Source: Clostridia bacterium (GTDB lineage Bacteria; Bacillota; Peptococcia; DRI-13; DTU073). Taken from it: 36,757 nucleotides of DNA. Below the pieces are notes generated by a model. That model made no database searches. It saw only the letters and a list, made by a program, of their open reading frames with translations, and had not been told where the DNA came from. The translations under genes were made by a program, and so were the position numbers. Below are positions 17,868 through 31,855 of this stretch, in pieces (positions within the stretch are counted from its first letter, which is position 1; each line of letters begins with the position of its first letter). The DNA is taken from positions 1 to 36,757 of the forward strand of contig DUTS01000011.1 in NCBI GenBank assembly GCA_012841935.1. The letters run 5' to 3'.

Positions 17868-20681
17868 CTAAAGTACCTTTTTTAGATATTTCCCAGTATA
17901 ACTAGCCGGATTTTCGGCCAATTCTTCTGGAGTACCCACAGCCACAACACAACCGCCCTGCTGGCCACCTTCAGGACCCAAATCAATACAATAATCTGCA
18001 GTTTTAATTACATCCAAATGATGTTCGATTACTAAAACTGTATTCCCCGCATCTACCAAACGTTCCAGCACATTTAACAACTTTTTAATGTCTGCCAAAT
18101 GCAGCCCGGTAGTAGGTTCATCCAAAATATATAATGTCTGACCCTGATTACGGCGGCTTAATTCCGAGGCCAGTTTTATCCGCTGTGCTTCTCCCCCCGA
18201 TAAAGTAGTAGCCGGTTGTCCCAAACGCAAATAACCCAAACCCACATCCTGCATTAATTTTAAACGCCGGTAAATTCTTAAATGATGTTGAAAAAACTCT
18301 GCAGCCTCATCTACAGTCATTTCTAAAACCTCGGCAATCGATTTCCCTTTATATTTTACTTCTAGTGTTTCCCGCATAAAGCGAGTCCCTTTACAAACTT
18401 CACACGACACATAAACATCAGGCAAAAAGTGCATTTCTATTTTAATAATTCCATTTCCCCCACAGGCCTCACAGCGTCCACCGCGTACATTAAAACTAAA
18501 CCTACCCGGCCGATAACCCCGCATGCGGGCCTCCTTAGTTTGAGCAAACAATTCACGTATCCCATCAAAAGCACCAGTATAAGTAGCAGGATTAGAACGA
18601 GGTGTTCTGCCAATAGGAGCCTGATCAATATTCACTACTTTTTCTAAATACTCCAAACCACTAAGTGACTGATAATTACCAGGGCGACAGCGAGCACGAT
18701 TTAATTTAACAGCCAATGCTTTATAAATAATTTCATTAACCAAAGTACTTTTCCCAGAACCAGAAACACCAGTTACACAAGTAAATACCCCTAGTGGAAT
18801 ACTTACCTCCACATTTTTTAAATTATGTGCTTGGGCACCCCGCACAACCAACCACTGATCATTTAATTTTCGCCTCACTGGAGGTACAAGAATCTGCTTA
18901 CGACCACTTAAATAATCGGCAGTTAAAGAACCCCGAATTTCCTTTATTTGCTCAAATGTACCTTGGGCGATAATTTTGCCACCATTTACCCCAGCTCCTG
19001 GACCAATATCAATAATTTGATCTGCTGCAGCCATCATTTCTTGATCATGTTCAACTACAATTACCGTATTACCTAAATCCCTTAAAGATTTTAAAGTATT
19101 TATCAAACGCTGATTATCCCGCTGATGTAAACCAATAGAAGGTTCATCTAAAATATAGAGGACTCCAACTAATCCAGAACCAATCTGAGTCGCCAATCTA
19201 ATGCGTTGAGCTTCCCCACCAGATAACGTTCCGGAAGTACGCCGTAGAGTTAAATAATCTAAACCTACATCTACCAAAAATTGCAGACGTGCACAAATTT
19301 CCTTCAAAACTTGTTGAGCAATAATTTTTTCCCGTTTACTTAATTTTAAAGTTTGAAAAAAATCCAAAGCCTCACCAACCGATAAAGAAGTAATTTCACC
19401 AATATTTTTCCCCTCAATCAATACTGCCAAACTTTCCTTTTTTAACCTAAAACCACGACAGGCTGAACAAATAGTTTGACTCATATAAGCTTCCAATTCC
19501 CGCCTCACATAACCAGATTTGGTTTCTTGATAACGCCTTTTTAAATTGGGAATTATCCCTTCATAGACCGTATCAAAAACTCTTAATTCACCTTTATGAT
19601 TATAGTAACTACAGCGAATTTTCTTCTTACCCGCCCCATATAATAATAATTTTTGCTGTGCTGTACTTAATTCATTAAAAGGTATGTTTTGGGGAATTTG
19701 AAAATGCTCAACAACCGCCTGCAAAACCCCCTGCTGCCATCTAGTGTTTCTTTTTTGCCAAGGTACAAAAACCCCTTCCGCCAAAGTCTTGCTTTTATCT
19801 GGCACTACCAACTGTAAATCAAATTCCTGCATAAATCCCAAACCATCACACTGCGGACAAGCCCCATAAGGACTGTTAAAAGAAAATAAACGCGGTGAAA
19901 TTTCAGCAAAACTAATCCCACAATCTGGACAAGCAAAATGCTGATTAAATAAAACCTCGTCTTCATTTAACAACACATTGACCAAACCACCACTTAAATT
20001 AAGTGCAGTTTCCAAAGAATCGGCTAACCGCGAAGTAATTCCTGGCCGCAAAATAACGCGGTCTACAACCACTTCGATTGTATGCCGCTTTTGTTTATCC
20101 AAATACAGTTTTTCATTAATATCTTTAATTTCCCCATTTACCCTCAGCCTGACATAACCCTCTCGGCGTATTTGCTCAATTATTTTCTGAAACTCACCTT
20201 TTTTTCCCCGTACAACAGGAGCTAAAATTTGCAAACGCATCCCTTGAGGATAAGTCATTAAACGATCAACCATTTGCTCTACAGTTTGCTGTTCAATCGG
20301 CTTACCACAATGATAACAATGCACCTTACCAATACGAGCATATAAAAGACGTAAATAATCATAGATTTCCGTTACCGTACCCACTGTAGAACGGGGATTT
20401 TTACTTACAGCCTTTTGATCAATGGCTATCGCCGGTGATAACCCTGCAATATAATCAAGGTCTGGTTTTTCCATTTGACCTAGAAACTGACGAGCATATG
20501 CTGACAATGATTCAACATAACGCCTTTGTCCTTCAGCATAAATAGTATCAAAAGCCAAAGAGGATTTCCCTGAACCACTTAAACCAGTAATTACAATTAA
20601 TTTATTCCGCGGGATCTCTACATCTATATTTTTTAAATTATGTTCTCGTGCTCCTTTAATGATAATCTTATTTTGTCCCAT
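17868..20681 (-). CDS. uvrA: Excinuclease ABC subunit A
   Basis: UvrA is the damage-sensing ATPase that loads UvrB. At 937 residues it has normal length and two ABC modules. Walker A is [13 protein letters not shown] near residue 32 and [11 protein letters not shown] in the second half, each with its own LSGGEAQRI signature and ILDEP Walker B. Zinc-finger cysteines are CPDC...CPQC and CEAC...CEVC. The ATG at 20681 has GGTTG-type purines just upstream and lies 15 nt after uvrB. The uvrB-uvrA-uvrC order gives a complete excision system here. I saw no GAAC-N4-GTTC SOS box upstream of uvrB. Confidence 0.97.
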
Positions 20682-20696
20682 TTTTTCAACCTACCT

Positions 20697-22676
20697 TTAT
20701 TTTACCTGAGCCCGTAATTCAAACAATAAATCTCTCAATTCGGCGGCTTTTTCAAAAGCCAATTCCTTTGCCGCCCCTTGCATTTCTTTTTCCAAACGGG
20801 CAATTAATTTCTTTTTTTCCTGCTGTGAGATCATAGTTAAATCAATCCCATATTCTTTTTCTTCCTCAGCAATTATCGTCGCCTCTAAAACATCTCTTAC
20901 CCCTTTTTGCACAGTTTGCGGCACAATACCATGTTTTGCATTAAAAGCCTTTTGAATACTTCGCCGCCGTTCTGTTTCCGAAATTGCCCGCTGCATGGAA
21001 TCCGTAATTTGATCCCCATACATTATTACCTTCCCTCTTACATGACGGGCAGCCCGCCCAATAGTTTGAATCAAAGAACGCCCTGAACGCAAAAAACCTT
21101 CTTTATCAGCATCTAAAATAATTACTAGAGAAACCTCTGGCAAATCAAGACCTTCTCGAAGCAAGTTTACCCCCACTAAGACATCAAAAACACCTAAACG
21201 CAAATCCCGCACAATCTGTATTCGTTCCAAAGTATTAATTTCAGAATGAAGATAACGAACCTTAATTCCCCATTCCCGTAAATAATCGGTTAAATCTTCA
21301 GCCATTTTCTTAGTCAAGGTAGTTATCAAAACCCGTTCCTTTCTTTTTTCCCTAACCTTAATTTCAGCTAAAAGATCTTCTATTTGACCTCTAGTTGGAC
21401 GAACCTCTATTTTAGGATCTAACAAACCAGTAGGACGGTTGATCTGTTCCACAACTACACCACTTCGTTCAACCTCATATGAACGAGGAGTAGCCGAAAC
21501 ATAAACCACCTGATTTAATTTTTCCACAAACTCATTGAACTTTAAGGGCCGATTATCCAATGCTGATGGTAAACGAAAACCATGTTCCACCAAAGTAGTT
21601 TTTCGCGAACGATCACCAGCATACATAGCCCCAATCTGGGGAATGGTTACATGAGATTCATCAATCATCAATAAAAAATCACCTGGGAAAAAATCAATTA
21701 AAGTATAAGGTGGTTCACCCGGTTTTCTACCTGTTAAATGACGAGCATAATTTTCAATTCCCGTACAAAAGCCCACTTCCCGCATCATTTCTAGATCATA
21801 AGAAGTGCGCTGCTCCAAACGCTGTGCCTCCAATAATTTCCCCTGACTACGTAAGACCTGCAAACGCCCTTTTAATTCCGTTTCAATTGTTTCTAAAGCC
21901 CCCAGCATTTTCTCTCTACCAATAACATAATGATTAGCAGGGAAAATACTCACTTGCCTTCTTCCTGCAATCACCTGCCCAGTCAAAGAATCTACTTCCC
22001 CGATCCTTTCTACCTCATCACCAAACAATTCCACTCGAATTATTTTTTCCCCATGTGAAGCCGGAAAAATATCAATAACATCTCCTCTTACCCGAAAAGT
22101 ACCTCGTACTAAATTAAAATCATTACGATCATACTGCATTGCAGTTAATCTGCGTAAAATAAACTCCCTTTCCACTAACTGACCTAAACGCAAAGCCAAT
22201 GTCTGTTTTTCATATTCCTGGGGTGATCCTAAACCATAAATACAGGAAACACTAGCTACCACAATCACATCTTTTCTTTCACATAAAGCTGCGGTAGCCG
22301 CATGCCGTAATTTTTCAATCTCCTCATTTAAAGAAGCATCTTTTTCAATGTAAGTATCAGTATGTGGTAAATAAGCTTCTGGCTGATAATAATCATAATA
22401 GCTAACAAAATACTCCACTGCATTTTCCGGAAAAAACTCCTTAAATTCACTACATAACTGAGCAGCCAAAGTTTTATTATGGGCAATTACCAAAGTAGGT
22501 TTTTGCATTAAGGCAATTACCTGTGCCATTGTAAATGTTTTACCTGTCCCCGTGGCACCCAATAAAACCTGCTCTTTTTTACCCCTTATAAAATTCCTTA
22601 CTAAAGCTTCAATAGCCGCCGGCTGATCCCCCCGCGGCTGATATTCTGAAATTAATTTAAATTTTCCCGGTTCCAT
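20697..22676 (-). CDS. uvrB: Excinuclease ABC subunit B
   Basis: UvrB is the helicase-like damage verification subunit. Its 659 residues show Walker [15 protein letters not shown] near residue 40, the beta-hairpin [16 protein letters not shown]-box [18 protein letters not shown], helicase motif [14 protein letters not shown] and QTIGRAARH. The C-terminal UVR motif is [19 protein letters not shown], which contacts UvrC. It heads the uvrBAC group after the terminator at 22744-22773. An extended -10 lies upstream. Confidence 0.97.
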
Positions 22677-22708
22677 TTACTTCATCCCTTAGATTAATCT
22701 CTAGCAAC

Positions 22709-22717
22709 ATTATAACA
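22709..22717 (-). promoter_or_regulatory. Possible extended -10 promoter of uvrB
   Basis: TGTTATAAT on the minus strand matches an extended -10 (TGnTATAAT) 33 nt upstream of uvrB and downstream of the previous terminator. The -35 region is poor; a TTGACG nearby is at the wrong spacing. Confidence 0.45.
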
Positions 22718-22743
22718 TAAGCGTCAAGTAAGCCCATAAATTA

Positions 22744-22773
22744 AAACGGGTGGGAAAACTTCCCCACCCGTTT
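22744..22773 (-). terminator. Hairpin terminator after the family gene at 22782
   Basis: AAACGGGTGGG (22744-22754) and CCCACCCGTTT (22763-22773) form a perfect 11-bp stem with an 8-nt loop, 9 nt after the stop codon. The following T tract is interrupted (TAATTTAT), so termination may be incomplete. Confidence 0.7.
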
Positions 22774-22781
22774 AATTTCAA

Positions 22782-23708
22782 TTAACCCCGTTCAAAGGCC
22801 GGTCGAATATGTTTCATATTCAAATCAGTCCCATCTACCTCTGTACGTAAAGTTAAGGCACTATCCTTTTTATCCCCCAATGAACTGCGTTTTTCAGCAA
22901 GCTGGGCCAACCGTTTATCTAAATGACGAATTACCCGTTCGACACGCCCCGAGTCCCCCACCAATGCATCCAAACAACGTTTATATTCTTGTAAAAGTTC
23001 AGAGCGGTTCCCAACTTTACTTACCCTTCCATCGGCTGCCAGTACTACCCCCCGGCTATATTGAACTATTTTATCTTCTAAGCAGCGTTCCATATCGGTT
23101 ATATCCTTAAAAAACTGTTCTTTGGGTTTCTTTCCTAAGGAAAAAAACGACAATGCATAGTTATCAACATCAAGCTCTAATAATTTATCCCTTACTTGTT
23201 TTTCCTCATTAATTAAAACAGTGCATATTTTTTGAGCTTCCTCAACAACCCGATTTGCCCCTAAAGCCTTGGCCCTTTCCTCCAAATCTTTTAAATCCTC
23301 TAACTCCCTCACATTTTCTTCCACATACTTTAAATAAAGCACATAAGAATTCGCCCAAAGACCCCGGTTAGTTGTTGGTCTTAAATTATATTTAATACTT
23401 ACCGATTGTGCTAAAATATATGCTGCATGGACACCATTACTAGCATCGTGTTTTTCTAGAAATTTTCTCCATCTGCCAGGAAAGAAAAACTCTTGCCCGG
23501 TTCTTTCCATAAAACCTCCCTCAATCGCCTTATCAATTTCCTGCAATTTCTTAACCATTATATTTCTGATAACAAAATTCTTATCCTTTTTAATCGCCGG
23601 TGCTATGGCTTTTCGAAATAACTTAGCTAATTCCTTTTCAATTCCCACCTCATCAGCATTTTTACTCGCTTCTTCAACATCCTTCTTTAATTTTTCCCAA
23701 AAACTCAA
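22782..23708 (-). CDS. Unrecognised helical protein, family member A
   Basis: 308 residues, highly charged, predicted mostly helical, with no signal peptide or membrane segment. I recognise no named domain. It shares an order of motifs with four other genes here: an MSFWEKLKK start; a helix ending in an NGVHAAYILA segment; a YLKYVEEN..L helix; LEERAKALGANRVVEEA; INEEKQVRDKL; then an aromatic-basic FF..KK segment; and a last coiled region with ENKIVQYS-type spacing (EDKIVQYSRG). The start is TTG at 23708 with GGGAGG upstream; members D and E share the same MSF beginning. It follows member B by 51 nt without a clear promoter, so B and A are probably one transcript ending at the hairpin. Confidence 0.85.
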   Translation of the reverse strand: MSFWEKLKKDVEEASKNADEVGIEKELAKLFRKAIAPAIKKDKNFVIRNIMVKKLQEIDKAIEGGFMERTGQEFFFPGRWRKFLEKHDASNGVHAAYILAQSVSIKYNLRPTTNRGLWANSYVLYLKYVEENVRELEDLKDLEERAKALGANRVVEEAQKICTVLINEEKQVRDKLLELDVDNYALSFFSLGKKPKEQFFKDITDMERCLEDKIVQYSRGVVLAADGRVSKVGNRSELLQEYKRCLDALVGDSGRVERVIRHLDKRLAQLAEKRSSLGDKKDSALTLRTEVDGTDLNMKHIRPAFERG

Positions 23709-23759
23709 CCTTAATAACCTCCCTTATTTTCTCCTTCTCTCATTTTTTAAATAAATAAC

Positions 23760-24614
23760 TTAAATTCTCTCTACCCCCCGCACCTCCTTAACCACGGTAG
23801 TAGTTTCCTCTCGCAGATTTTGAGCAGATACTGCTAGTTGATCCAAAGCACCGAAACGACTTTGCCTGGCCGAATCGGCAGCTAAAATAGCCTTTGCAAT
23901 TTCTATTAAATTCCGACCACAATCTTTAAGTAAATGCCTATAGGCTGACAGTAAAGGATTCCGCCCCTGCTCAGTATATAAAGCTGCTTTAGTTTCCAAC
24001 ACACTTTTTACCATTTCATAATCCTTGCTAAAACTTTCCTTCTTCTTCTTATAAAAAATCCTTTTATAAGGACGATATTTTCCCGGATAAGCCTCATTAA
24101 TCATTTTCCTAATTTTATTTTTTTCCGCAATCAAATTAGCTGCAGATAAATTAGCTTTATGAGCCAAATGATTAGCCCCTAAACGCCGTGCCGTACTTTC
24201 CAACTCTTTTAGACCAGTTACTTCTTTTTTAGTTTTGGCCCAATACTCCAAAAACTTCACTTTTAACTTTACCCATTTAACATCATTTGTTTCCTTCATT
24301 GAATCTAAATTTAAAGCCATTTCCTTAGCCAAATGTGCCGCTAATTCTATACCATCCTTAAAACCATATTTCCCTAAAAGAACTTGCCTTTCCTCAATTG
24401 AAGCCTGACCCAATATCTCAATTTCATCCATTATTTCTATTACTACCAACTCTTTGATTTCACGCAATTTAGTAGTAAAACTTATTTTATTTCCAATATT
24501 TAATGGCTTATAAATCCTCCGATAGGCATGTATAAACCGATCTTCCTCCAAGATTCCAAAATAAATTTCCCGAAATATCCATGCTTCCCTTTTTATATTT
24601 TCCAAGATACCCAT
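23760..24614 (-). CDS. Unrecognised helical protein, family member B
   Basis: 284 residues, basic and charged, predicted cytoplasmic and helical. Family motifs in order are MGILENIKRE at the start; LLGKYGFKDGIELAAHLA; WVKLKVKFLEYWAKTKKEV; LESTARRLGANHLAHKA; LIAEKNKIRKMI; KKKKESFSKDYEMVKSVLE; and a TKAALYTEQGRNPLLSAYRH segment shared most clearly with member D. A final helix ends in a basic KEVRGVERI tail. The start ATG has a perfect AGGAGGTGA ribosome site. Its own promoter lies directly after the stop codon of member C. Function is unknown; a structural or scaffold role is only a guess from composition. Confidence 0.87.
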   Translation of the reverse strand: MGILENIKREAWIFREIYFGILEEDRFIHAYRRIYKPLNIGNKISFTTKLREIKELVVIEIMDEIEILGQASIEERQVLLGKYGFKDGIELAAHLAKEMALNLDSMKETNDVKWVKLKVKFLEYWAKTKKEVTGLKELESTARRLGANHLAHKANLSAANLIAEKNKIRKMINEAYPGKYRPYKRIFYKKKKESFSKDYEMVKSVLETKAALYTEQGRNPLLSAYRHLLKDCGRNLIEIAKAILAADSARQSRFGALDQLAVSAQNLREETTTVVKEVRGVERI

Positions 24615-24674
24615 ATTTTCACCTCCTAAAATAGTATTTAGACTATATAGGAAAATTCAATTAACTACTGTTGT

Positions 24675-24703
24675 ATTGTATCACACTAATTTAAAGTTGG
24701 CAA
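24675..24703 (-). promoter_or_regulatory. SigA-type promoter of family gene B
   Basis: TTGCCA (24703..24698) and TACAAT (24680..24675) have exactly 17 nt between them on the minus strand. The -35 begins one base after the stop codon of the preceding gene. Confidence 0.7.
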
Positions 24704-24704
24704 A

Positions 24705-25406
24705 TCATCTTCTCAAACAAACCTCATTCCTGTTAATTGCCCTGCTCCTACGATTTGAGCGGAGTTTTTGGGCAGACTCCACTAATTCGACTAATTCTCT
24801 TTCCTCGGAAAGGCCCTTTCTTGCCAAAGAAACAAGCTTTCGCAAATTCATTTCAAGTAGATCACAAGCCTTGAACCATTCCTCTTGAAATATGGCCATT
24901 CCTTGATACCAACTTTGTCCAGGCTTAAACTTGTCCACCTTCTCTCGCAAAAGTTCCTCTTCTTTGTTTAATTTTTCCCGCTCCTCTTCATTTTTCAAGG
25001 TCTTTAAACATTTTTCTTTTTCATAACTAAACTGGGCCAATTTTACCTCTAGGGAAATCCATTTTTCTTCCTCAGTTAAACAGGGATTATAATAAGCATT
25101 TACATGTCCGGATACCTTTAATACGGCTTCCTCGGTACTAGATACCCCCAACTGAACTAGTAAATGTTCTTTTATTTCCCGATTAACCGTTGTTTCCCGA
25201 TTATCAATTTTATCCGAAGCATCTAAAAGGATCAAATTAAAAGCTTTATCCAAGCGGTCCAAATTTTCCTTTTGAATGTGGGGATTGGTTTCATATTTCC
25301 TTACAATATTCTCTAAACCCCTAAAGAGGGTGCCTTTTTCATTCACCAGACGATAATTGTCACGCACACGCCGTGCGAAACCCCAAAAGCGTGAAAAAAT
25401 ATTCAC
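24705..25406 (-). CDS. Unrecognised helical protein, family member C
   Basis: 233 residues if the GTG at 25406 is the start, giving VNIFSRFWGFARRVRDN. GGGGGTGGGG lies 6-12 nt upstream and a strong promoter precedes it. The open frame's first ATG (25472) overlaps that promoter's -35 and cannot be used from it. The protein is helical and charged without membrane segments. Family motifs are HLLVQLGVSSTEEAVLKV, KWISLEVKLAQFSYEKEKCL and EEREKLNKEEELLREKV with a following KPGQSW. The ALGAN segment is poorly conserved and the C-terminus is shorter and very basic (RSNRRSRAINRNEVCLRR). It follows the minJ-like gene. Confidence 0.83.
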   Translation of the reverse strand: MNIFSRFWGFARRVRDNYRLVNEKGTLFRGLENIVRKYETNPHIQKENLDRLDKAFNLILLDASDKIDNRETTVNREIKEHLLVQLGVSSTEEAVLKVSGHVNAYYNPCLTEEEKWISLEVKLAQFSYEKEKCLKTLKNEEEREKLNKEEELLREKVDKFKPGQSWYQGMAIFQEEWFKACDLLEMNLRKLVSLARKGLSEERELVELVESAQKLRSNRRSRAINRNEVCLRR

Positions 25407-25431
25407 CTTCCCCACCCCCTTTTTTGGAGAC

Positions 25432-25472
25432 ACTTCTGAAGTTATTATAACACTACTTTGCCTAATATTCAA
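25432..25472 (-). promoter_or_regulatory. Consensus-like promoter of family gene C with a palindrome at the start site
   Basis: TTGAAT (25472..25467) and TATAAT (25449..25444) lie 17 nt apart on the minus strand. Right after the -10, ACTTC-T-GAAGT (25432-25442) is an 11-bp palindrome at the expected transcription start, a possible operator. Confidence 0.72.
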
Positions 25473-25481
25473 ATATTAACA

Positions 25482-26735
25482 TCAATTCTTCCATTTTGCC
25501 AAAAAACTTTGCAATTCCACCCAGAACTTTTTTAGGGGGCTAACAGAAGTTAATACCTGTAAATAAGGGCCTATTTGACGGCCTGGCACAGGCAAAAAGC
25601 CCCACTCCATCCCTTTTTCTATAGTAAGTGTCATTTCTTTAATCTGCTCTTCAGCCAAATATTTTAATTTTAACTTCCCGCCTTTTTCCATATCTATAGC
25701 ACTAATTTCCGTTTCACAGCTTAGTGGCTGTTCATTGATAGCCAATAAAACGTCCCCGGCTTTTACCCCAGCATTGGCTAAAATACCTCCCCGCTCTACC
25801 GCCAATATTTTCACCCCATTATCTACAGGCACAAAAAGCGGTTCACCACGTACCTCACGCCGACGGCCCCAATAAATAACCAATTCATGCCCACCAGGAC
25901 CAAAAAGTGCAGCTAAATAGGCTAATGGAGGATAATAACCGGCCCCCAAAGCCAAACCTAAAAGAATAATACTATAAAGAGCCAATTCCCTACCAGCCAA
26001 TTTTGTTTTCTCACGCGGTGTCATCGAGATAGCCACATCTCCATAACCTAAAATAGCCGGAATGGCCAACAAACTATAAACCACATCACCTTGCCATAAA
26101 GCAAATTCTGGTTTTAATAAAGGCCACCAATCCGGCATACTGACTACACCCTTAATAATTTGCGGATCAGGATAGATTCCAGCAAACAAAACTATTAAAG
26201 GTAGTGGCCAAAACTTTTGTAAATTATAACCCCCTACGAGGTGCCCCTCTTTTGTGGACACATAAATAGGCAAAACATTCATACTACCTGTAAAATAAAT
26301 TAGAAAGGCCTCTACTAAATGCAAAATGGCTACCAAAGCCATTACCTGAGGCACATTGACTAGCTGTAATCCCCCCAGCAGCGAAATTAAAGAAAGTACA
26401 CCACCAGCATAAGCAAAACACAAGAAACGCTGTTGAATTAACATTAGTACCAAAGCCGTAATTAGCAAATAGAAACCACCAATTTCATTTAATGAAATCC
26501 CCACCAATACCAATAAACAACTACCTAAAAACCCACCACTTATCCCCAAAAAGGCAGCCGTGATTGTTAAACGCCAGGGCGATTCCCCCGGCGTTTTAAA
26601 CAAATCCTTTGTTGTCTGCGTCATTTTACGATACATAAAACCCACAATAATTAAGACAATCCAAAAAGCAGGTCGACAAAAACTAGCCCAAAAGCTGCTC
26701 CAAAGTAGGGGCAAGAACTCTTTCCAAGGAAACAT
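25482..26735 (-). CDS. MinJ-like polytopic membrane protein with PDZ domain
   Basis: 417 residues. About eight hydrophobic segments occupy residues 8-290, followed by a cytosolic or surface PDZ domain near 300-385 (GVKILAVERGGILANAGVKA, GDVLLAINEQPL). This architecture and position, directly after ctpA and ahead of uvrB, match Bacillus MinJ, which links DivIVA to the MinCD division-site system. I infer orthology from gene order plus domain layout; sequence identity was not measured. The ATG has GGAGGCGG about 8 nt upstream and lies 18 nt after ctpA, so the two are probably co-transcribed. The PDZ domain could instead, or also, present substrates to the protease. Confidence 0.85.
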   Translation of the reverse strand: MFPWKEFLPLLWSSFWASFCRPAFWIVLIIVGFMYRKMTQTTKDLFKTPGESPWRLTITAAFLGISGGFLGSCLLVLVGISLNEIGGFYLLITALVLMLIQQRFLCFAYAGGVLSLISLLGGLQLVNVPQVMALVAILHLVEAFLIYFTGSMNVLPIYVSTKEGHLVGGYNLQKFWPLPLIVLFAGIYPDPQIIKGVVSMPDWWPLLKPEFALWQGDVVYSLLAIPAILGYGDVAISMTPREKTKLAGRELALYSIILLGLALGAGYYPPLAYLAALFGPGGHELVIYWGRRREVRGEPLFVPVDNGVKILAVERGGILANAGVKAGDVLLAINEQPLSCETEISAIDMEKGGKLKLKYLAEEQIKEMTLTIEKGMEWGFLPVPGRQIGPYLQVLTSVSPLKKFWVELQSFLAKWKN

Positions 26736-26753
26736 TGTTTATGCCGCCTCCAA

Positions 26754-27899
26754 TCATTCTTGACTATTTAATTGTTTACGTAAAATTTCCAGTGCCTTGT
26801 GTAATTGCAAATCCTGCCCAGTTTCACTTTCACTTACCTCAATATCCGGGATGATCCCTTTAGCCTGAATATCATGTTGTTTAGGTGTTAAATATTTTGC
26901 TGTTGTTAACTTTATGGCATCCTTCCCCCTTAACTCAATCAATACCTGCACTAAAGCTTTTCCAAAAGTTTTTTCTCCCACTAAAACTCCTGTTTCCGTG
27001 TCCTTTATGGCCCCAGCCAATACTTCCGAGGCACTAGCACTACCATTATTAATTAAAACTACCAAAGGCACACCCAATTCTATCGGCTGATTATTTAACA
27101 TAGTTTCCATACGACCATTTTTATTAACAATATGCACTACTGGTCCTTCTGGAATAAAATAACGAGCTATATTTACTGCAGCCTCCAAATCCCCCCCGGG
27201 ATTATCCCGCAAATCTAAAACCAATCCCCTTATTTTCTCCTGCTTTAATTTAGCTAAATGTAAACTTAAGGCTTCATCAGAATTACTGGCAAATAATTTA
27301 AGCCGCAAATAACCAATTTTACCGGGTAAAACCTGACTTTCTACTGTAGGTACATCAATAATAGCTCTGGTAACCGTGAAATCTTTAATCTCCCCATCCC
27401 GGAACACACTAATCTCTACTTTTGTCCCTGGTTCACCCCGCATTTTGGCCACAGCCTCATCAAGGTCCATTTCACTAACCAATTTTTGATCAACTTTAAA
27501 AATGATATCACCTTTTAATAAACCAGCTTTACTAGCCGGTGTGTCCTCGATTACCGAAAAAATTAAAAATTTATCATTTTCAGTACTAACATAAACACCT
27601 ATTCCCCCTATTGAACCTTCGATATGCTGCCGAAACTCGGCATATTCTTCCTGATCCAAATAAACCGAATACGGATCCTCCAGGGCTTCTACCATACCCC
27701 GTACTGCCCCGGACATAATTTGCTTACCAGGAACCTTTTCTATATATTGAGTTTTAATTACCGCAGCTACTTCTAACATTTTACCGATATTCTGGTAGTT
27801 GGTAATAAAAAAAACACCTACACAGGCGGTAACTACAAAACTAAGCACCACTAAGATTGTAAAAAGAAACCTCAAAACTTGTTTTCGTTTTTCCGACAA
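26754..27899 (-). CDS. ctpA: Carboxy-terminal processing protease (S41 family)
   Basis: A membrane-anchored serine protease of the CtpA/CtpB type; in Bacillus CtpB signals between forespore and mother cell during sporulation. Counting from the in-frame GTG at 27908, a membrane anchor covers residues 13-36. A PDZ domain covers about 95-180 (SIGGIGVYV, TPASKAGLLKGDII). The catalytic triad is Ser292 in GSASASE, Lys317 in TFGKAL and Gln321, with the family's 25- and 4-residue spacing. I prefer the TTG at 27899, because AGGGGTG lies 6 nt before it and the GTG is part of that site. That removes three residues. It precedes the minJ-like gene. Confidence 0.93.
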   Translation of the reverse strand: MSEKRKQVLRFLFTILVVLSFVVTACVGVFFITNYQNIGKMLEVAAVIKTQYIEKVPGKQIMSGAVRGMVEALEDPYSVYLDQEEYAEFRQHIEGSIGGIGVYVSTENDKFLIFSVIEDTPASKAGLLKGDIIFKVDQKLVSEMDLDEAVAKMRGEPGTKVEISVFRDGEIKDFTVTRAIIDVPTVESQVLPGKIGYLRLKLFASNSDEALSLHLAKLKQEKIRGLVLDLRDNPGGDLEAAVNIARYFIPEGPVVHIVNKNGRMETMLNNQPIELGVPLVVLINNGSASASEVLAGAIKDTETGVLVGEKTFGKALVQVLIELRGKDAIKLTTAKYLTPKQHDIQAKGIIPDIEVSESETGQDLQLHKALEILRKQLNSQE

Positions 27900-27908
27900 A
27901 TTCTTCAC

Positions 27909-28223
27909 CCCTATAAAACTGCTTCCTAAGTCTAATGTATATTCCTATCTTATAGTATTCAGCACCCGAAAACAAGAAAAAGACGAGTAACTAAATTAAG
28001 TCCTCGTCTATCTACATAAATGTGAAATATTTTCCATTGTCTCGCGGTGAGGATAATACTCATCATCATACGACCCTATTTAATATAGGATGCTTAATAG
28101 CCTTATTTGCGGCTTTATAATGACGGAGGTTTGTTTTTAAGTCTTTAATAATATTCAGGTGAAAAAACAAGTCTCTCCCTGCTTAATTTTTGCTTATTAA
28201 TATTTTTTAGTATACCAAGTCTT
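27909..28223. other. 315-bp gap before ctpA with terminator and a coding scrap
   Basis: This is the longest gene-free stretch in the core region. It holds the terminator described separately. Upstream of that on the minus strand is a short open frame after a TAA (about 28084..28008) reading SYDDEYYPHRETMENISHL and ending in TAG. Its composition looks like real coding sequence, but it has no start codon or ribosome site. Another frame just upstream (NLRHYKAANKAIKHPILNRV) may be a different part of the same decayed gene, as the two are in different frames. I see no clear ctpA promoter, though AT-rich -10-like sequences occur at 27930-27955. Confidence 0.4.
27970..28009 (-). terminator. Intrinsic terminator between family genes E-D and ctpA
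   Basis: AGACGAG (27981-27987) and CTCGTCT (28003-28009) form a 7-bp stem extended by further pairs after a bulge. On the minus strand TTTTTCTTGTTTT follows. It lies 215 nt after gene D. Confidence 0.8.
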
Positions 28224-28850
28224 CTATCTAACTATTTCCCATTCCTTATTCTTAGCTTTTAACCGCTCCTGTGCTTTTAATAAAGGCGACTCACCCCGCT
28301 GATAATCACTCTTTCTAGCCTCTAGTAACTGCTTCAGCAGTAAATATTCTTGCTTGAATTTCAGTGGAGACTCCCTTGTAGAGAAATGCTTTACTGGTTT
28401 TAAATTATTCACCTTGACTATAAAACTTTCCCTTTCGGCCTCTATTTTTTCAAGCTCCTCTTGAGCTCTTTCCGCTAAATAATCAGCACGAATATTGCGG
28501 GCTTCTTTTTTAAATTCACTAAGCCTGAGCAACTCTTTTTCCGCACAAACTTGATATTCCCATAATTTCACTTGAATATCCAACCATAATTCCTCACAGG
28601 TACTCAATTGATTATGTTTATTTATTTTTTCACCCAAGGCAGCTAATGGTTTTAGCATTTCCAATCTTGAATAATCTTTCCGAATGAATATTTTACGGGC
28701 CATGGCTTCCCGAATCATCACTTCTTTTAAATCATTTAATTCTGCTTCCCCCACACCCGACATTTGACAAAACTTCTGCCAAACTGGCTCAACTTCACTA
28801 ATTATTTCCCTTAAAACACCTCTTTTTTTTAAATCTACCCAAAAACTCAA
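28224..28850 (-). CDS. Unrecognised helical protein, family member D
   Basis: 208 residues, the shortest member, charged and helical without membrane segments. It begins MSFWVDLKKRG, nearly the same as member A. Later motifs are ELWLDIQVKLWEYQVCAEKE, ARNIRADYLAERAQEELEKI, AERESFIVKVNNLKPVKHF, FKQEYLLLKQLLEARKSDY and QRGESPLLKAQERLKAKNK, the last matching member B's GRNPLLSAYRHLLKD. The start is TTG at 28850, with AAGGGGGA upstream. It ends soon after the PLL segment, so the C-terminal helix of A and B is missing. It follows E by 21 nt and is probably co-transcribed with it. Function unknown. Confidence 0.87.
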   Translation of the reverse strand: MSFWVDLKKRGVLREIISEVEPVWQKFCQMSGVGEAELNDLKEVMIREAMARKIFIRKDYSRLEMLKPLAALGEKINKHNQLSTCEELWLDIQVKLWEYQVCAEKELLRLSEFKKEARNIRADYLAERAQEELEKIEAERESFIVKVNNLKPVKHFSTRESPLKFKQEYLLLKQLLEARKSDYQRGESPLLKAQERLKAKNKEWEIVR

Positions 28851-28871
28851 CCCAATCCCCCTTAAAACTTT

Positions 28872-29702
28872 CTAGCGGCCTTCAATAATTTCCCGCCCAC
28901 TAACCTGCCTTTCAGAAGTTTTCTTCAACCCCCCGGAAGCTTGAGCCCAATCGGATAACCACTTCTGAAATTTACGTTGAGAAACCTCACTAGATTTTTG
29001 ATACTTTTGCAATAAAGTCAAACCTGCATCTAAATAGGCCAAATTCTCACGATTAGGACGCTGTTGACTTCCATATAATTCAAACTGTTTGAGCCCTTCA
29101 TTATAAAAGTCAATTTTTTCAGCAATCAAATTTTCCGCTTCTTTAATACCTTCAAATTGTATTTCTTCATCAAATTTAGGCCTTAAAGACCAAATCTTTT
29201 TAGCATATTCCTCTTTTTCATTAACTAATTTTTCAGCTGTCCGACGCAAACGCCCAGCCTGTATTTCATTATCATCAAAACAACATTCCATGGCTGAAAC
29301 TTTTTTCACCGCCCGCTGATTCAACTCCAAATATTCTAAATACTGCAGCTGCAGTTTTACCCAAGGGAAACCATTTAAATAATCTGCCCCAATTTCAGCT
29401 TGCCAATCCTCGGCTATTTTAAGTAGTGCTTTTTCACGTGTATCCACCTCATATTTTTCCAAAAGCTTCTTTTGAGCCTTTTTAACCCTATCTGTTAATC
29501 CCCGCTCTTTTTCCATAACACCCCAATGACACAAGCGTTGATAATCATAGATTTGTTCAAGAAGTACCTTCCCTTGCAAATCTACCCCTTTCCATGCTAG
29601 TGCTTTCCGTAATTCCCGAACAAAAATCTTTTGGCGGTAACTTTCCCGGCCAATCTCCTGTAGTGCCCCGAAGGCCTTTTTTAAATCATTGACAAAACTC
29701 AT
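28872..29702 (-). CDS. Unrecognised helical protein, family member E
   Basis: 276 residues, charged, helical and predicted cytoplasmic. It begins MSFVNDLKKAFG. Family motifs are LLEKYEVDTREKALLKIAED; PWVKLQLQYLEYLELNQRAV; LRRTAEKLVNEKEEYAKKIW, ending in SLRPKF; a glutamate-rich segment with EAENLIAEKIDFYNEG; and a long C-terminal helix. The ATG has AAGGAGGA upstream and a consensus promoter 45-73 nt upstream. The gene comes directly after envC's terminator, so E-D is a separate unit inserted between envC and ctpA. A cysteine pair (ECCF, near residue 146) is unusual for the family. Function unknown. Confidence 0.87.
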   Translation of the reverse strand: MSFVNDLKKAFGALQEIGRESYRQKIFVRELRKALAWKGVDLQGKVLLEQIYDYQRLCHWGVMEKERGLTDRVKKAQKKLLEKYEVDTREKALLKIAEDWQAEIGADYLNGFPWVKLQLQYLEYLELNQRAVKKVSAMECCFDDNEIQAGRLRRTAEKLVNEKEEYAKKIWSLRPKFDEEIQFEGIKEAENLIAEKIDFYNEGLKQFELYGSQQRPNRENLAYLDAGLTLLQKYQKSSEVSQRKFQKWLSDWAQASGGLKKTSERQVSGREIIEGR

Positions 29703-29746
29703 ACTTATCCTCCTTTTAACTCAACATTAATAATTATTTATATAAT

Positions 29747-29775
29747 ATTATACAATTCATATTATAAAAAAGCAA
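29747..29775 (-). promoter_or_regulatory. SigA-type promoter of family genes E-D
   Basis: TTGCTT (29775..29770) and TATAAT (29752..29747) are separated by 17 nt on the minus strand. The -35 overlaps the 3' side of the preceding terminator. Confidence 0.75.
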
Positions 29776-29794
29776 GCCCTAAAAAGCGGCTTTT
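29765..29794 (-). terminator. Probable terminator after the envC-like gene
   Basis: AAGCC (29774-29778) and GGCTT (29788-29792) pair around a 9-nt loop, followed by GC and six Ts on the minus strand. The stem is short, so it is moderate in strength. Confidence 0.5.
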
Positions 29795-30951
29795 TAAACA
29801 GCCTTTACATATTTTAACGGATCTTCAGGTTCACCATTAACTCGAATTATAAAATCCAAATGTGGTCCAGTACTCCAACCAGTACTACCTACCTTACCTA
29901 TGGGATCACCCTTTAAAACAAAGTCACCAACTTTAACCAAATAAGCACTCAAATGTGAATACTGAGTAGAAATACCGCCCCCATGATCAAGAATAATGGC
30001 TTGTCCATACCCTCCCTTGTTGCCTACATAAATTACCCGACCAGTTTCCGAAGCTAATACCAAAGTCCCGGTTGGGGCTGCAATATCAATAGCCGGATGG
30101 AAACTTCTTTCCTTAAAAATGGGATGTGTACGCCAACCAAATGGGGAAGTAATCCGAGTGTGACCAGGTAAAGGCCAACCCATCTTTCCCGAACCGAGAT
30201 AAGCCTCCTGATGTTCAGCTTGCCATTCTTTAATAAAACGATCAATACTTTTGCGTACTACCTCTAATTCTTTGATCGAACGTAAATATTCATCTTTTTG
30301 CTGTTCAATGGTTTTTAAGAGATTATTTTTTTGGCGCGACTGTAATTCCATCTGCCGTTGTTTTTGTTCCTTTTGGTTTTTTAAAAAATTATAATTTGCT
30401 ACCTGTTCTTGCAAATCCGCCTTTTTAAGAGCCAATTCTTCACGAGTTTTATTCAATATCTTTAATTTTTGCAGATCACTTTCTGCAATTTTTTGCAAAA
30501 AATCAAAACGAGTTAAAAAATCCGTCCAATCTGTAGATTGAAAAAGTACCTCTAAAAAACTTACTTCCCCTTGTAAATAAATTTCATTCAAACGCGTATT
30601 AAAATAAGCGGTGCGTTCCTCTACCAAAAGAAGTGTTTTTTCTATTTCTTCTTGGATATTATTTAATAATAATTCGGTAATACTTATTCGATTACATAAA
30701 GTATTAACATCCTCATTTAAACTACAAATATTATTTTCTAAATCCCTAATTTGGCCTAAGACTTGTTTCCCTTCCCTTTCTTTATCCTTATACAGCTTTT
30801 CAAATTTCTCAATCGCTGCCTCAATTTCTTCCAATTCGGTCTTTTTTTGCTCTATTTCCGCATCTTCCAGTGCTCCCAAAGGCAGAGTCATTAGGAAAAA
30901 AATCATAATCATCCAGAAACATAATCTTTTATGTTTTGATAAAGTCATCAT
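29794..30951 (-). CDS. EnvC-like coiled-coil protein with LytM/M23 domain
   Basis: 385 residues. An N-terminal signal or anchor helix (8-27) is followed by two long coiled-coil regions (about 30-125 and 155-245). A C-terminal M23 domain covers 258-385 (GWPLPGHTRITSPFGWRTHP). Metal and catalytic positions: H285-x3-D289 and YSH (H333) are kept, but the usual HLH is HLD (364-366), so one zinc ligand is Asp. The gene follows ftsE-ftsX. In E. coli EnvC and in streptococci PcsB are driven by FtsEX to switch on wall cleavage at division. I infer the same role here. The altered ligand suggests an activator or a weakened hydrolase. AGGAGG lies 7 nt before the ATG. Confidence 0.9.
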   Translation of the reverse strand: MMTLSKHKRLCFWMIMIFFLMTLPLGALEDAEIEQKKTELEEIEAAIEKFEKLYKDKEREGKQVLGQIRDLENNICSLNEDVNTLCNRISITELLLNNIQEEIEKTLLLVEERTAYFNTRLNEIYLQGEVSFLEVLFQSTDWTDFLTRFDFLQKIAESDLQKLKILNKTREELALKKADLQEQVANYNFLKNQKEQKQRQMELQSRQKNNLLKTIEQQKDEYLRSIKELEVVRKSIDRFIKEWQAEHQEAYLGSGKMGWPLPGHTRITSPFGWRTHPIFKERSFHPAIDIAAPTGTLVLASETGRVIYVGNKGGYGQAIILDHGGGISTQYSHLSAYLVKVGDFVLKGDPIGKVGSTGWSTGPHLDFIIRVNGEPEDPLKYVKAV

Positions 30952-30967
30952 TTTCTTTCCTCCTAAT

Positions 30968-31855
30968 TTACACCTTTAAGAAACGTCTTAAACTGATAGC
31001 ACTGCCAGCAGCACCTAAAAATACTCCTAAAATTAATAACCATTTATAAACATGCAAAATTACATTTAACTCCTTTAATACCGGCAGAAAGTTTAAAGTT
31101 AAAATTACATTACGCACTAAATTGGCATAAAAAAGATGTAAGAATAAAATAGCAAGTATTGCCCCCACCAAGCCGACAATCATACCTTCCAAAAAGAAGG
31201 GCCAGCGAATATACCAATCTGTAGCCCCTACCAATTTCATAATGCCAATTTCTCTACGACGAGCAAAAACGGTAAGTCTAATACTAGTAGCAATCAAAAA
31301 GATGGCCGCCATACCAATCACAATTACAATAACTATCCCCACAGTACGCATCCAGTTAGTTAAAGCCAAGAGTTTTTCTACCAAACCCTGCCCATATCTA
31401 ACCTTTTCTACCTCTTGGATTTTTTCCACTTCACCAGCTAAACGAGGCACATCTTCAGCCACTTTAGCTTTTAAACGATACATATCTGGCAAGGGATTAT
31501 GTCCGCCAAGAGCTTCAATAATACTAGTATCATCCCCTAAACGCTGCTGAAGCCTTTCCAAACCTTCTTCTTTGGAAACAAATGTTACTTCTTCTACACC
31601 ACCTAAGTTTTCAAACTTACGCCGCAGATTTAAAGCTTCATCTCTTTCCACTTCACTTCTTAAATAAGCGTTAATTTCCAATTCCGATTCCATTACTGTT
31701 GCCAAATGCTGCGAATTTAAAACTAATAACCAAGCACAGCCTAAAATTAATAAAGAAATAGCTACTGTAGCCATCGAAGCTAAACACATCACTTTATTCC
31801 TTTTCATGGAACGCAGGGCATCCCGAATCGAATATTCAAAACTGCTTAACCTCAC
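30968..31855 (-). CDS. ftsX: Cell division ABC transporter permease-like FtsX
   Basis: FtsX is the membrane half of FtsEX, which transmits ATP hydrolysis to periplasmic or wall-side hydrolase regulators rather than moving a substrate. At 295 residues it has the family topology: one helix near 22-46, an extracellular loop of about 120 residues (YLRSEVERDEALNLRRKFE, PLPDMYRLKA), and three further helices. The RREIGIMKLVGATDWYIRWPFFLEG cytosolic signature (here REIGIMKLVGATDWYIRWPF) is present. The start is GTG, directly after the ftsE TAA stop. Confidence 0.95.
   Translation of the reverse strand: MRLSSFEYSIRDALRSMKRNKVMCLASMATVAISLLILGCAWLLVLNSQHLATVMESELEINAYLRSEVERDEALNLRRKFENLGGVEEVTFVSKEEGLERLQQRLGDDTSIIEALGGHNPLPDMYRLKAKVAEDVPRLAGEVEKIQEVEKVRYGQGLVEKLLALTNWMRTVGIVIVIVIGMAAIFLIATSIRLTVFARRREIGIMKLVGATDWYIRWPFFLEGMIVGLVGAILAILFLHLFYANLVRNVILTLNFLPVLKELNVILHVYKWLLILGVFLGAAGSAISLRRFLKV

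Follow-up and report, generated by a model that had tools for sequence, protein, structure and literature searches.

A paralogous family of predicted helical proteins around ctpA and minJ in the DTU073 lineage

Five related genes around ctpA and minJ

The window, by which we mean the whole stretch of 36,757 nucleotides that was analysed, carries in transcription order secA, prfB, transketolase (two genes), ftsE, ftsX, an envC-like gene, two genes that we call E and D, ctpA, a minJ-like gene, the genes C, B and A, and then uvrB, uvrA and uvrC. The genes A to E are all present as open reading frames of the minus strand at the positions given in a preliminary description of this DNA: A (22782..23708, 308 aa) directly upstream of uvrB, B (23760..24614, 284 aa), C (24705..25406) directly downstream of minJ, D (28224..28850, 208 aa), and E (28872..29702, 276 aa), which is the most divergent of the five. 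Three genes on the same strand flank them and lie outside the family, i.e. those for the minJ-like PDZ membrane protein (25482..26735), the S41 peptidase CtpA (26754..27908) and the envC-like M23 peptidase (29794..30951). The identities of these three were checked, and the remaining genes of the locus carry names given from sequence.

The longest open reading frame of C starts at 25472. The GTG at 25406, which the earlier reading had chosen, is the better start, because it is preceded by AAGGGGGTGGGGAAG and because it gives the family N-terminus MNIFSRFW. In the relative G002 the genes envC, ctpA, minJ and uvrB are contiguous without inserts, so the broken order first noticed in the window is real. 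The same relative encodes a 791-aa protein with zero Pfam matches between its transketolase genes and ftsE (L023:6528-8903, minus strand). The third-position GC of the five genes is 0.31-0.38, close to the 0.25-0.36 of their neighbours, and there is no sign in it of a recent foreign origin. An Rfam search of the window from 20000 to 31000 gave zero matches. The spacer between D and ctpA is 315 bases long (27909-28223); a candidate remnant of a family N-terminus in this spacer was dropped, its score of 1.1 bits being reached by 17 of 500 shuffles.

Pairwise BLAST by itself connects some pairs only. The single-sequence comparisons of A with B (E=2e-11) and of B with D (6e-10) are significant, and the links of the other two genes are weak (B-E 0.016, A-E 0.05, C-D 0.09), so that C and E would stay doubtful on this comparison. 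An independent profile was made of seven relatives from other genomes and contains zero window sequences. It matches B at 3.8e-52, A at 8.8e-32, C at 3.1e-22, D at 3.9e-20 and E at 9.7e-13; among 900 composition-matched shuffles the best value is 0.016. Since all five are recovered by a profile free of window sequences and the shuffles are far weaker, the family is real, and these matches (about 4e-52 to 1e-12) show a common ancestry of A, B, C, D and E. The proposal of one family made from the motifs is thus borne out by the profile HMM. The motif order on which it was based is visible in the alignment, except that G-x-x-LL-x-AY is absent from C and altered in E.

Distribution and divergence

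The window genome (G000; 1.32 Mb in 130 contigs) encodes at least nine members. Apart from the five in the window, there is one each on contigs C16, C49 and C100, and a ninth, more divergent one on C34 (L060:7427-8182, minus strand), between a bioF-like and an rsfS-like gene. This last member was found only with an enlarged profile, and it matches a member of G001 with a BLAST E-value of 1e-10. Of the seven genomes in the taxonomic family to which the window genome belongs, four encode members: G000 itself, the congeneric G001 with four copies, G003 with a single copy, and G006, i.e. Clostridiales bacterium DTU073, with five copies (two on contig C1 and one each on C41, C6 and C31).

Of the 25 genomes searched in the order and the 46 searched in the class, the 18 and 39, respectively, that lie outside this taxonomic family have no member. 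A sample of 399 genomes of the phylum has no member outside the one taxonomic family, and two peptide patterns derived from the family hit only three relatives when run against 84,980 species genomes, the absences reaching as far as a pattern-based scan and a sampled, not full, phylum can carry them. The contigs of these three relatives match G001, G003 and G006. No relative of the family was found among the viral contigs, phages and plasmids searched. In the genomes searched, the sequence comparisons confine the family to one DTU073-like taxonomic family. A 2025 paper ranks DTU073 as a family within the order DRI-13 of the class Peptococcia (PMC11932165), and the taxonomic family of the window genome is probably this one.

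The branches of the family tree are long, and several of its forks stay open. The following groupings are supported: A with G001_2 (91/97), whose next gene downstream is likewise uvrB; C with G006_C1a/b (89/86), both directly downstream of minJ; E with G006_C31 (100/100); and G001_4 with G006_C6 (99/96). Since the supported pairs cross genomes, the duplication is old and common to the genomes rather than a recent local burst, and the tree shows several old subfamilies, each common to more than one genome. Divergence by duplication, as the preliminary description had it, is supported by our analysis. Local duplication is not supported as the main story, as each of A, C and E pairs in the tree with members from another genome and four copies lie on other contigs.

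The counterparts of A, B, C and E in relatives are 26-39% identical to them, compared with 62-82% for the counterparts of uvrB, minJ, ctpA, uvrA, uvrC and envC. Third codon positions vary more than second ones in all of the seven pairs compared, most weakly for E. The members are therefore constrained, though loosely, since second-position changes are fewer than third-position changes, and the coding constraint is relaxed relative to the neighbours. Between the two genomes, E and G006_C31 conserve subfamily-specific blocks. The G006_C6 copy (L015:7770-8620, minus strand), between NIF3-like and U32 peptidase genes, has a frameshifted N-terminus and is either a decayed copy or an assembly error. 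In the same genome a short open reading frame before the first C1 member (L021:10341-10517, plus strand) could be a fragment of a family N-terminus. It scores 11.7 bits, with 11.0 for the best of 500 shuffles, and is possibly the remnant of a duplicated copy.

Protein features and library searches

The structures of B and E were predicted with AlphaFold, with the same 11-sequence alignment as input. The models are all-helical with a low-confidence C-terminal tail (mean pLDDT 82.6 and pTM 0.77 for B, 79.4 and 0.73 for E), and their first six main helices stand in the same order, both models coming from one alignment. The position-by-position agreement of the helices is no better than in shifted controls. 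On these models, B and E likely have the same fold. The proteins had been described as helical, charged and devoid of an export signal, which is supported. In B numbering, conservation is highest mainly at W114, Y124, E164 and a number of leucines, and no obvious catalytic cluster was seen among these columns.

The alignment argues strongly that the short N- and C-terminal ends are conserved. The N-terminal pattern is M-x-hydrophobic-hydrophobic. SAQxLR or a close variant stands near the C-terminus in most full-length members. D and the members on C49, C100 and C34 are without this tail, yet end in Arg. All 13 members with a clear start have hydrophobic residues at positions 3 and 4 (background 15%), and the last residue is Arg in 12 of 19 members (13 of 19 if G006_C1b is read in its own frame) versus 9 of 125 background proteins, these statistics having been made after the pattern was noticed and with related proteins counted as independent. 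The codons for the C-terminal Arg are mixed. A, E and G001_1 rank near the top in N-terminal amphipathic moment; the values are low for G006_C1a and for C, the latter computed from the longer start. Since the N-terminal amphipathicity is unexceptional in some members, a membrane association is weakly founded.

Searches with the family against Pfam, NCBIfam, PHROGs and PDB sequences returned noise only, with no significant match to a PHROG or phage relative. Foldseek gave nothing with E below 0.001 for B and E against PDB, or for B against the viral models of BFVD. The family was thought to be undescribed, and zero matches in any library searched agree with this. It is new as a family without entry in these libraries, and lineage-restricted paralogous families are already known. 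It is like the bacterial ORFan paralogous families, which belong to one lineage, are multicopy and fast-evolving, undergo birth and death and have no library domain. The differences from the usual ORFan families are its conserved short ends on a variable body and its insertion spot at minJ-uvrB-uvrA. Its long, charged helices, together with a putative amphipathic helix at the N-terminus, recall PspA/Vipp1 (ESCRT-III-like) and BAR-domain scaffolds, but neither Pfam nor the fold search gives a significant match of the family to them.

Genomic sites and possible roles

The spacers of minJ-uvrB-uvrA are used by toxin-antitoxin or transposase genes in three relatives. Next to uvrB, where the window genome has family members, G005 carries an MNT-HEPN pair (L022:2162-2879), G003 an antitoxin of the Phd/YefM type and a small partner gene (L016:6359-7044), and G004 a Y1 transposase accompanied by a DnaA-like HTH (L062:402-1355). 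Since other accessory genes occupy this spot in relatives, it looks permissive for such genes, and a position there hence tells little about function. The other copies are dispersed over unrelated intergenic sites, with neighbours, as named from sequence, such as biotin genes (C34) or zapA, U32 peptidase and MutS2 genes (G006 C6). A search for flanking repeats or common DNA at the copies found nothing resembling mobile-element ends; the common DNA consists of neighbouring spacers, DNA upstream of uvrB and short pieces that resemble terminators.

The explanation that we favour, although we hold it tentatively, is that of a lineage-restricted, fast-diverging paralogous family of cytoplasmic helical accessory adaptors, a role that we infer from the sequences. 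The members would turn over by birth and death as accessory genes, outside the FtsEX-CtpA-MinJ machinery, and would most likely act by non-enzymatic binding or as adaptors. Their common ends may engage one shared putative host partner, which could be the membrane's inner face, contacted by the predicted N-terminal amphipathic helix, and the variable helical body would set the ligand. Some positional stability counts against an accessory repertoire, as A, B and C are found beside minJ or uvrB across genomes. We also speculate, though we think it rather unlikely, that the DTU073 lineage has an as yet undescribed system for sorting or conflict, in which one host machine reads the ends of variable adaptors (N-terminal amphipathic helix, SAQxLR, Arg); candidates for this machine could be a compartment, a protease or a membrane complex. 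An uncultured, small-genome, clostridium-like lineage gains here an unannotated multicopy protein family, and its end motifs, subfamilies and common insertion spot are handles for testing.

The main rival, which overlaps with the adaptor reading, is a role in conflict. The genes might form a repertoire of anti-phage, immunity or toxin-antitoxin-like proteins that has so far gone undescribed; their bodies would recognise invaders or toxins, and the diversity of these would drive the divergence, the changes in copy number and the sharing of the insertion spot. We judge this unlikely, while taking it as a serious candidate. It would fit the fast divergence and the copy number, which in related genomes varies between 0 and 9. 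MNT-HEPN and Phd/YefM-type modules sit in the same uvrB-side spacers of relatives, and an MNT/HI0074-like pair is found some 0.6 kb away from the copy on C49. However, the family has no sequence relation to these modules and lacks a consistent two-gene module of its own, and it shows neither a nuclease nor an NTPase motif. The PADLOC matches are all at noise level, with a best E-value of 0.0087, nothing significant, and each matched PADLOC family in one member only. Zero phage relatives also speak against conflict genes.

An alternative hypothesis could be that the copies are neutral or decaying selfish open reading frames with no cellular role, which would account for the frameshifted G006 copy, the possible N-terminal fragment in L021 and the fast divergence. 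We find it improbable, because the frames are open with second positions varying less than third ones, the subfamily blocks are kept between the genomes of E and G006_C31, the ends are conserved at the protein level, and neither a transposase nor terminal repeats accompany the copies.

The preliminary description suggested a division, wall or sporulation system, and the proteins could accordingly be read as envelope or division accessories of CtpA, MinJ, EnvC and FtsEX, with C-termini that may be PDZ ligands or CtpA substrates. Five of the nine copies are inside this gene cluster, members adjoin minJ or uvrB in G000, G001, G003 and G006, the C-terminal residue is conserved, and both CtpA and MinJ have PDZ domains. 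The distribution among the relatives points the other way and makes such accessories decidedly improbable. The family fails to co-occur with ftsX and ctpA in either direction across genomes: ftsX, envC, ctpA and minJ are present and the family absent in G002 and G005, and G003 has a family member with ctpA and ftsX undetected, any single absence being weaker for the incompleteness of the assemblies (G003 is 92% complete). Among the 25 genomes of the order, ftsX is found in 21 and the family in four. These patterns in the relatives do not support the proposed system. The position in the FtsEX-CtpA-MinJ cluster is not constant either, further copies being dispersed on C16, C34, C49 and C100 of G000 and on C6, C31 and C41 of G006; guesses of function from the neighbours call for caution, as relatives do not keep the ftsEX/ctpA/minJ position. 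In addition, the members are without an export signal whereas CtpA is predicted to be extracytoplasmic, and to our knowledge a C-terminal Arg is no classic PDZ ligand.

Substrates of type VII secretion, or similar exported helical proteins without a signal peptide, would match the helical character, the missing signal peptide and the conserved C-terminal tail motif, but this is very improbable and largely excluded, as no WXG or LXG domain match was found in the family and EssC is above the family cut-off in 0 of 7 genomes. Each of the seven genomes has one sub-threshold EssC match, which we take as FtsK/SpoIIIE.
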